Assembly (NCBI RefSeq): GCF_021233435.1
Contig: NZ_CP089468.1
Coordinates: 2,046,001 to 2,110,000, forward strand
Length of the DNA: 64,000 bases
Source: Halobacterium noricense
Lineage (GTDB): Archaea > Halobacteriota > Halobacteria > Halobacteriales > Halobacteriaceae
Direction: 5' to 3'
Below the pieces are notes generated by a model. The model had not been told where the DNA came from and did not search any database. It saw nothing but the letters and a program-made list of their open reading frames with translations. Position numbers and translations under genes: made by a program. Shown here one piece after another: positions 52,892 to 55,305 of this stretch (positions within the stretch are counted from its first letter, which is position 1; the number at the start of each line of letters is the position of its first letter).

Positions 52892-53060
52892 CGCGCTGGG
52901 CTACCCGCTACGCCAGCAAAAGTCCCGCCATTCGCGGGTAAGACTGAAGAAACGGGCCGATGATGCCGAAAACGGGTGTTTCGAGGGGACTACTGTCCAC
53001 GGATGGTTTTTCCGTGAGTAATTTAGGGATTTTTTATCTCTGTTATCTTCAAATAGATTG

Positions 53061-53067
53061 AATATAT
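53061..53067 (+). promoter_or_regulatory. TATA-like box of the 44-residue peptide gene
   Basis: AATATAT lies 26 bases before the ATG at 53093, so the message should be nearly leaderless. The 200-base gap before it (52892-53092) is A+T-rich towards its end and contains no gene I can support. Confidence 0.55.
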
Positions 53068-53092: not shown

Positions 53093-53227
53093 ATGACAGA
53101 CAGCAAGTTCACGCAGTTCCTCAAGGACAACCCCCGGATGATTGGCGTGCTGTTCAGCCTGATGGTGTTCCTGTCGAGCACGGGCGCCGCGGCAGCGAAC
53201 TACGGCGCAATTAACTCCGGTCCTTAA
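53093..53227 (+). CDS. Short haloarchaeal membrane peptide (DUF7503-like)
   Basis: A 44-residue peptide. 'KFTQFLKDNPRMIGVLFSLM' followed by 'VFLSSTGAAAANYG' gives a short charged N-terminus, one hydrophobic helix (about residues 17-33) and an Ala-rich tail ending 'AINSGP'. Peptides of this pattern (FLKDNPRM, one TM helix) recur in haloarchaea, and I believe they are called DUF7503; treat this as recollection. The stop TAA shares TTAA with the stop of the convergent CHAT-like gene. It may be secreted, or a membrane target of that gene. Confidence 0.7.
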   Translation: MTDSKFTQFLKDNPRMIGVLFSLMVFLSSTGAAAANYGAINSGP

Positions 53228-55305
53228 TCGGTACGTTCCTCGAAAAGTTCATCACTCCATATCAAGTCACCATCGAACAGAATCGGGACGACACCGTGCT
53301 CGAAGAAATCCCGTAGCTCGCTACCAGCGACTTCGAACGTATCGACGCGACCGGAGTTCAGGTAACGTGTTGTGTTTTCTCGAATATGTGGCGTAAATAA
53401 CGAACCCATAGCAGACGTTGATGTCGGATAACAGCGAATACTAAGCTCGTAACTGTCGTCTAGTTCACTCAACTCCAGAGAGATCGGAATACCGCTTCGG
53501 TTCTGCACTAATTGAAGTGTCCCATCTCCGATGGTGATATACTGATTTCCGAACAGCGTCACGTTCCGCGCGACAGATAGCCCCGCCTGCAGCGAGAACC
53601 CGTTGTTCAAGAGGCGAGCGAGTGCGCGACCGATTCTAACTGCAGGGTCGTTGCTGATGTTCGCGAGCGTGACGATGCCACCGTAGCTCCCACGCTCGAC
53701 GAGAACATCGCCCTGCTCGTAGGACTTACACGCGTTCAGCAGGAACGCGTCGACGTTCACTTCGTCAAGCGTCCGCGCGTCGAACATCCCATCAGCGCAC
53801 TGGAATCCGCCTTTGTCGACGTGCCCGATGTAGTGCAGGAAGTCGATGTTCTTCCGGAAAATCGCCGCGAGTTCGTCGGTAGTCAGGTCGTAGTGGACAG
53901 TGATGTCGAACTCGAAGATGTCCCGCGTGCCGTAGAACTCCTCGACGATGTCCTCCTCGCTCATCTCGTCCTCGTTGCAGACGATGTCGATGCTGATGGA
54001 GTCCTGCTCGCGGGCGGGGCGGTCCAGTCGACGGAGGTACGACTCCACGCGGGTCTTGCTCGCGCCGAGCGGGAACCCCTCCGCAATCCACGCGTGTTCG
54101 ATGGCATCCGTCTCGTCGGGCTTGACGACGTTCGACCAGTCGGTCACCGACTCCCCCCGGGAGGTGCTTCGGACAGCCGCGCCGTTCGCGCGGTAGAACT
54201 CCGTCAGCTCCTCGGGCTCGTCGTGGACGTTGGGCTCTTCGCCCGTGCTAGGTATCCGAACTGTCGCCAGTTCGTTCGCGACGAACGGAATCGCTTCGAC
54301 GTGGTCCGGGTCGGGTTCGATGTCCACGGTGAGCTTCCACTGCGGGACGTGTGGGTTCGTGACCTCGTAGGGGACGTCGAGGTACGCGCGGAGGCGTTCC
54401 GCAGGAGATGCGTCGTAGACATCCACGGGGTCGAACGGAAGCTCGTCCTCGACCACGTTGCGCTCGTGGAGGTTCACCGGGTAGAACCCCTCGGTGCGGG
54501 TGACGCAGTCGAGGAAGAAGACGTGTTTGAGAAGTTTCGAAACCTCCGCCTCGAAGCCGCGCTCCGTGTCGAGGTCGTAGTGGTCGCCACCGACGCCAAG
54601 CACTCGTCTCTCGCCGGGGACGATGTCCGCGCCGAGGTAGTACGCCAGCGAGCTCACGCGGAAGAGGTCACCGTAGTCACGGGGAATCTCGATGGTGACG
54701 CCGGTCTCGGGCAGTTCGAATGCGTCCGGCGCGTCGAAGGCGTCGCCGCGCTCGACGAGCGGCGGGTGGCCGCGGAGCGTCGGGAACGAGCGCTCCGGGG
54801 ACGTGGTCTTCAGTGCCGAGCTGCTGAGCGCAATCGCGCGCATCGCGTCCTCGACGTCGTCGCCGATGGTGATCGTGCCGGCGGGGGATTCGTGGAGCGA
54901 GCGAGCGCCGAGCGCGATCTCCTCGGCGTCTTCGAATCGAACGAATGTGGTGTTCTCGGAGCGACGTACGGTGACGGCGCTGTCGACGACGGCCTGCAGT
55001 TTCATCGGGCCGATGTCGATGTCCAGCGAGTACCAGTTCTCGTCGTAGGCCGCGACCTGTTGGTTGGCCGACTCCCCGACCATCGTCCCGGTGTCGTCCC
55101 ACAGGAAGACGTTCACCAGCCGCGGAATTTCGAGTTCCCCCGCAGTGACGGTGACGGCGCTGTCGACGGGTAGGAGGAACTGCTCGGTGTCCGCCTCGAC
55201 GGGGGCGACGACCCGGTCCGTGTACAGCTCGAACTGGGCGTTCTCGATGGGGTCGCGCACGAGGAGGCCGTCCGGGTCGACCAACGGCTCGAACTCCGGT
55301 CTCAT
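53224..55305 (-). CDS. CHAT/caspase-like cysteine protease
   Basis: A 693-residue cytoplasmic protein with a C-terminal CHAT (caspase-like) domain. The likely catalytic dyad is H495 in 'LHYIGHVDKGGFQC' and C526 in 'FLLNACKSYEQG', followed by the typical 'GIVTLANISNDPAVRIGRAL' helix. The N-terminal about 420 residues are beta-rich, of unknown fold, and could sense a signal or substrate. The ATG at 55305 is chosen because the upstream TTG-initiated extension is basic. It sits between the peptide gene and PccA. Such proteins act in cell-death or defence circuits in bacteria; here that is inference. Confidence 0.72.
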   Translation of the reverse strand: MRPEFEPLVDPDGLLVRDPIENAQFELYTDRVVAPVEADTEQFLLPVDSAVTVTAGELEIPRLVNVFLWDDTGTMVGESANQQVAAYDENWYSLDIDIGPMKLQAVVDSAVTVRRSENTTFVRFEDAEEIALGARSLHESPAGTITIGDDVEDAMRAIALSSSALKTTSPERSFPTLRGHPPLVERGDAFDAPDAFELPETGVTIEIPRDYGDLFRVSSLAYYLGADIVPGERRVLGVGGDHYDLDTERGFEAEVSKLLKHVFFLDCVTRTEGFYPVNLHERNVVEDELPFDPVDVYDASPAERLRAYLDVPYEVTNPHVPQWKLTVDIEPDPDHVEAIPFVANELATVRIPSTGEEPNVHDEPEELTEFYRANGAAVRSTSRGESVTDWSNVVKPDETDAIEHAWIAEGFPLGASKTRVESYLRRLDRPAREQDSISIDIVCNEDEMSEEDIVEEFYGTRDIFEFDITVHYDLTTDELAAIFRKNIDFLHYIGHVDKGGFQCADGMFDARTLDEVNVDAFLLNACKSYEQGDVLVERGSYGGIVTLANISNDPAVRIGRALARLLNNGFSLQAGLSVARNVTLFGNQYITIGDGTLQLVQNRSGIPISLELSELDDSYELSIRCYPTSTSAMGSLFTPHIRENTTRYLNSGRVDTFEVAGSELRDFFEHGVVPILFDGDLIWSDELFEERTD

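Follow-up and report, generated by a model that had tools for sequence, protein, structure and literature searches.

Several described systems pair a caspase-fold protease with a second protein. In Craspase (the TPR-CHAT protein Csx29 with Csx30) and in the type III SAVED-CHAT systems, the gene of the protease is accompanied by that of a small partner of its own. Securin is the dedicated binding chaperone or inhibitor of separase, gingipains are bacterial secreted proteases with pro-domains, and in the bacterial gasdermin-protease pairs a caspase-like protease lies beside a membrane effector. The window studied here, a stretch of 64,000 nucleotides of Halobacterium noricense DNA, contains a gene for a putative protease that faces the gene of a 44-amino-acid peptide. 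The peptide is a member of the Pfam family DUF7503 (PF24335), the function of which is unknown in Pfam. As in Craspase and SAVED-CHAT, the protease is predicted to be a CHAT-type caspase-fold His/Cys enzyme, but no CRISPR, SAVED or TPR part was seen in its model, which has an N-terminal beta-sandwich instead, and its partners are Gly-Pro-tailed proteins of 40-200 amino acids found class-wide in Halobacteria. The clan-CD fold is common to separase, whereas the partner shows neither visible sequence likeness to securin nor a link to the cell cycle, and inhibition would here be an analogy. A gingipain is the best structural match, but no export signal was noticed in the window protease. The bacterial gasdermin-protease pairs likewise place a caspase-like protease beside what could here be a membrane effector; however, at 44 amino acids the window peptide is much too small to be a gasdermin, and its helix is dispensable.

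The convergent gene pair and its protease

Both open reading frames of the pair proved to be genuine at the positions originally predicted, with stop codons that overlap in TTAA. The features are as follows.

53048 to 53066, plus strand: conserved palindromic promoter-like 19-bp element TTCAAATAGATTGAATATA, upstream of the peptide
53093 to 53227, plus strand: partner peptide (DUF7503, PF24335), an ORF of 44 amino acids with a Pfam match
53138 to 53197, plus strand: hydrophobic helix of the peptide, residues 16-35, maximum Kyte-Doolittle value 1.85 over 19 residues
53198 to 53224, plus strand: C-terminal tail of the peptide, NYGAINSGP, residues 36-44, homologous to the Haloplanus tandem repeat unit
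53224 to 53227, no strand: TTAA, overlapping stop codons of the convergent genes, both TAA
53224 to 55305, minus strand: putative CHAT-like caspase-fold protease, 693 amino acids, ATG at 55305, fold from the model
53494 to 54105, minus strand: predicted catalytic domain, residues ~401-604, from structural matches to gingipain, SAVED-CHAT and separase
53728 to 53730, minus strand: Cys526, predicted catalytic, invariant in 46/46 sequences
53821 to 53823, minus strand: His495, predicted catalytic, invariant in 46/46 sequences
54250 to 54864, minus strand: alpha/beta region, residues 148-352; some structural alignments begin at residue 210-215
54865 to 55305, minus strand: N-terminal beta-sandwich, residues 1-147, from a model of residues 1-325 (pLDDT 93.4)

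The peptide matched Pfam DUF7503 with an E-value of 3.5e-19 and 68.6 bits, against a curated cut-off of 27. The type of stop-codon overlap seen in the window (gap 3) recurs in 43 of the 152 distinct peptide-protease pairs. The palindromic element ends 27 nt before the start codon of the peptide, has no second copy in the window even when 3 mismatches are allowed, and is conserved at this place in much of the genus.

The window protease gave no match at E<=1 to Pfam and NCBIfam families, CHAT (PF12770) included, nor to PDB sequences at the same threshold. Three paralogs with 35-36% identity are encoded in its own genome, and one of them (35% identical) barely passes the Pfam CHAT cut-off with 24.5 against 24 bits. 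An AlphaFold2 model based on an alignment of the window protein with 45 relatives from haloarchaea (46 sequences) reached a mean pLDDT of 87.8. Compared with known structures by Foldseek and VIA-align, the model matched over residues of about 322-601, with gingipain R (RgpB) on top (Z 20.9, rmsd 2.7 over 244 residues), followed by gingipain K (Z 18.7), SAVED-CHAT (Z 17.9, rmsd 2.5 over 169 residues), separase (Z 17.9) and the TPR-CHAT protein of Craspase (Z 13.9). H495 and C526 are invariant in the 46 aligned sequences and were present in 30/31 sequences of an earlier set. Because of the structural matches and this invariant dyad, we consider the caspase/gingipain/separase (clan CD) fold of the modelled protein well supported. 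The caspase-type fold and the His/Cys dyad of the original prediction are thereby borne out, and the protein is most simply described as a putative cytoplasmic clan-CD cysteine protease of a haloarchaeal CHAT-like family.

For the N-terminal part, whose earlier suggested role as a sensor is a guess, structure prediction yielded a beta-sandwich of about 140 residues (1-147), while the structural matches obtained with residues 1-325 were weak, the best being the periplasmic domain of YidC at a Z of 7.9, within the ambiguous range of the tool. Residues from about 210 onward may, judging from the model, form a pseudo-protease half as in separase and TPR-CHAT. No TPR or SAVED part was visible in the model, and none was matched among the Pfam and NCBIfam families.

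Occurrence of the pair in Halobacteria

In a family-level survey of 26 genomes, DUF7503 was found above the cut-off in 22 and the protease in 22. The class survey covered 194 Halobacteria genomes, of which 164 (54 of 65 genera) carried DUF7503 and 179 (58 of 65 genera) matched the protease profile. DUF7503 was absent from all 15 protease-less genomes, and the peptide was therefore found without the protease in none of the 194; the reverse, a protease but no DUF7503, was seen in 15 genomes, three of them Haloplanus. The hypergeometric P of this co-occurrence is 1.7e-14, ignoring phylogeny. As to orientation, 87 of the 88 sampled class-survey loci were tail-to-tail pairs: 30/30 of the DUF7503 loci drawn from the top scores of the class list, and 57/58 of those taken by hand, and thus not at random, down the rest of the printed list. 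At the sole exception (L149), both genes lie on one strand, with the protease about 1.4 kb upstream. Two more loci were copies of an orphan peptide with no protease within 7 kb. The co-occurrence and the arrangement agree with the original claim of a two-part unit, which is conserved class-wide; a peptide widespread without the CHAT gene was not what the survey found.

Seen from the protease, the best 80 named loci, all in Halobacteria, comprised 74 that face DUF7503, two that face a Haloplanus repeat protein and four that face neither. The pair was also present in nine Haloferax loci outside H. volcanii. In the set of 183 distinct full-length proteases, compiled before some later loci were joined, 152 face DUF7503, nine a repeat protein and three another GP-ended ORF, two of these being divergent DUF7503-like. 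The remaining 19, the own-genome paralogs and several tandem proteases included, are without a recognisable partner, and they cluster on the tree (6 changes against a shuffled mean of 18; FastTree, with 49 of 180 inner branches weak). Outside Halobacteria, weaker relatives of the protease turned up in a single further family of the phylum, in four genomes. Three of these have no facing GP ORF, and the fourth has a doubtful one that overlaps. In the titles and abstract openings of the open-access literature that was searched, no description of the pair came up, and neither DUF7503 nor a haloarchaeal CHAT domain gave a match.

Some loci depart from the usual arrangement. The DUF7503 peptide gene is duplicated in tandem beside one protease in G018 (L019/L031, C1:486534-486796). 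The divergent pair of G011:C5 (L033/L169) consists of a protease that matches in separate pieces and a facing divergent DUF7503 peptide. Genome G023 (L036, L153, L154, L160-L162) encodes five orphan DUF7503 peptides that are nearly identical, only one of them differing, by a single residue; they end in GCGSLGP and have no protease gene within their 7-kb loci. The stretch common to these copies can be as short as 171 bp, made up of the ORF and about 34 bp before it, with 88-95% DNA identity, and they look as if they had been moved as single-gene cassettes.

The Gly-Pro tail and its carriers

The helix of the peptide is replaced by copies of the tail in most Haloplanus, and this natural experiment singles out what appears to be the active part of the partner. 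The 12 Haloplanus genomes have one protease each. Its partner is an ordinary helix-bearing peptide, such as MSESDSGTVATYLKNNPRMMGVLFTMLLLLSQAGTVAAGNSGAISGP, in three of them and a repeat form in eight, seven of which are fully readable with 4-14 copies; the eighth is masked (N) inside and ends in VSGP repeats, and the contig of the twelfth genome is too short. A further Haloplanus MAG (L216) has a partner with two tail copies. The fully read repeat forms have a start similar to that of the ordinary peptide and no hydrophobic stretch, followed by A[DA]GNxxxISGP copies, and overall the repeat unit follows the pattern ADGNxxx[IV]SGP in 2-14 copies. The unit resembles the tails of DUF7503 relatives (AAGNNVGISGP, AAGNHVGISGP) and varies between species (GGGI, SGGI, SSGI, GSGI, GGAV). 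Maximum Kyte-Doolittle values are about -0.25 for a 4- and a 7-copy form and -0.09 for the 2-copy form, and the three Haloplanus genomes of the class survey with repeat forms gave no DUF7503 match. In the seven arrays the variable codon columns are 45 synonymous against 2 non-synonymous, and at L258 the 13 copies encode the identical 11 residues with 13 different DNA sequences. The tail copies are under purifying selection. Since the arrays without a helix keep their residues while their codons drift, the tail appears to be the functional piece of the partner and the helix a replaceable carrier. Helix and array forms are intermingled on the FastTree tree (3 changes, provisional owing to weak branches), which suggests repeated switching between them.

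A final GP is found in 181 of the 189 distinct DUF7503 ORFs and is lacking in eight; as background, 1.4% of ORFs of at least 30 codons in the examined loci end in GP, true partners included. The ORF facing the protease of G169, roughly 40 residues if the GTG start is assumed, ends in TYSGP with no recognised DUF7503 match. A second, divergent protease subfamily, which faces unrelated peptides and is matched from about model position 25-50 onward, lies near a regulator gene that we take to be tbsP (in 15 of 16 examined loci). In these 16 loci, hand-picked from the match list, the facing ORF ends in GP in 12. In nine of these the tails resemble AKRVSTYGGP and their codons differ synonymously, and a hydrophobic stretch is present in three of the 12; the soluble partners gave no DUF7503 match with our own model. 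Taken by sequence, the conserved unit appears to be a Gly-Pro-ended tail on interchangeable carriers.

Within DUF7503 the tail changes quickly. Its pN/pS is about 0.5-0.85 against 0.04-0.06 for the core, where the binning of pairs by core identity has lowered the core values and the use of GP-ending peptides only makes the GP row zero by construction. Diversifying selection on the tail was not detected, as pN/pS was not above 1. Over 144 pairs, tail similarity followed protease similarity with an r of 0.34, compared with 0.19 for the helix core. Co-variation of single tail columns with the protease was weak (best partial r 0.14), with a slight excess in residues 605-693.

Possible roles of the partner and gene context

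The analysis shows that the genes are paired, that the modelled protease has the fold and the dyad, that the helix can be lost and that the tail copies are under purifying selection; binding, the sign of its effect and the contact site are inferred. We propose that the facing small protein is the dedicated ligand of the protease, docking by its Gly-Pro tail and controlling where and when the enzyme is active, and we give this reading about an even chance of being correct. The working part of the ligand would be its C-terminal tail, about 9-11 residues with Gly-Pro at the end, borne by a membrane helix (the usual case and that of the window), by a soluble chain of 2-14 copies (Haloplanus) or by a short soluble stretch (second subfamily). 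Docking of the tail on the protease would set the place and time of activity, and clustering in the membrane or tandem copies would supply avidity. We lean towards a tether or pseudo-substrate that restrains the protease as securin does separase, since the tail looks like a bound product or pseudo-substrate and the number of copies would set the dosage. Some observations count against the ligand model. By positive-inside reasoning, the membrane form would expose its tail outside the cell, which would conflict with the protease and the Haloplanus forms, where no export signal was noticed. In addition, 19 of 183 proteases are partnerless, 8 of 189 peptides lack GP, G023 has orphan peptides, and the fast-changing DUF7503 tail also fits a loosely constrained linker. 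The mechanism can be tested directly with short synthetic peptides.

Two other readings come close to restraint, namely activation by proximity and a substrate that is cut. In the first, rather unlikely but the better of the two, the peptide would activate by gathering protease molecules, through clustering in the membrane or tandem copies. Helix and tandem array being interchangeable carriers within one genus, the multivalency of 2-14 copies, and a peptide never seen without the protease in the surveyed genomes while the reverse occurs, all point this way. Repeat numbers down to two and single soluble tails, however, offer little valency, and the inactivity of the protease on its own is presumed.

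It is unlikely that the small protein is instead a substrate, its tail or each repeat being cut into short signal peptides as in tandem-repeat pheromone precursors. The tandem arrays of a single identical unit, the Ala-rich, signal-peptidase-like stretch before the tail and the KR that precedes the last 7 residues in 8 of 9 soluble tbsP-side partners would suit such processing. On the other hand, the Haloplanus repeat forms have no helix able to export them, DUF7503 has no common cleavable residue near the tail, and cleavage upstream leaves the invariance of the final GP unexplained. An exported pheromone is a weak rival, because the tested repeat partners lack a hydrophobic stretch.

A cut after the Arg/Lys that almost always precedes the helix (NPR|M) was weighed separately and rejected as the general mechanism, the motif being absent from the Haloplanus repeat partners; some peptides also have Q or W at this position, which further disfavours it.

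The ligand reading also fits better than an independent toxin, because the peptide never occurs without the protease among the 194 genomes while the protease without the peptide exists. It is highly improbable that the peptide is a membrane toxin or pore-former which the protease switches, in the manner of gasdermins or type I toxins. A single hydrophobic helix in 44 amino acids would suit it, and the tandem copy in G018 and the dispersed copies in G023 recall type I toxins, but the helix is dispensable in most Haloplanus and absent in other partners. The pore-forming or membrane-active partner considered in the original prediction is not supported, given the loss of the helix and multiplication of the tail in Haloplanus and the soluble partners elsewhere. 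That the convergent overlap is without functional link, the peptide being conserved as a bystander or serving as an antisense or terminator element, is scarcely credible. The 3' ends do overlap or lie very close together (median gap 8), but the core is under coding constraint (pN/pS 0.04-0.06 with pairs binned by core identity), the pairing holds across 54 genera and the repeats are conserved at the protein level only.

Extracts of Haloferax volcanii are reported to have very high caspase-like activity with a preference for aspartate, and archaeal genomes were said to be without clear homologues (PMC3615174). The present survey places in 179 of 194 Halobacteria genomes a caspase-fold family that has its own partner and an invariant dyad. 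In H. volcanii itself DUF7503 and DUF7504 were matched, and the evidence for the protease comes from the nine other Haloferax loci. Because of DUF7503 in H. volcanii and the pair in these loci, the family is a testable candidate for the source of the unassigned activity; the aspartate preference is predicted by none of the present data. We regard it as speculative, and rather improbable, that Halobacteria use an unrecognised proteolytic signalling, with a caspase-fold enzyme addressed by Gly-Pro tails on a helix or a tandem array, and that this accounts for the H. volcanii activity.

A role in defence or cell death, as suggested originally, found no backing. PADLOC gave no match at E<=0.01 for the protease, the peptide, a DUF7504 protein or a second protease, no relative of the protease was found on viral contigs, and the window neighbours, which we take from their sequences to be a biotin ligase, a biotin carboxylase and a carboxyltransferase, are of housekeeping type. 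A DUF7504 (PF24336) gene is present in 26 of 58 loci examined, mostly directly upstream of the protease and in the same direction. The link is only partial, because DUF7504 is a large family with 2-16 matches per genome; none is annotated next to the window pair. A HalX-type response-regulator-like gene lies near the pair in 9 of the 58 loci. Together, the DUF7504 and HalX-type neighbours (L099-L152) hint at a signalling module.

A gene for a Cdc6/Orc1-like ATPase was also seen near the protease in 9 of the 58 loci (L095, L096, L098, L101, L107, L114, L126, L132, L142), mostly directly upstream and on the protease strand.
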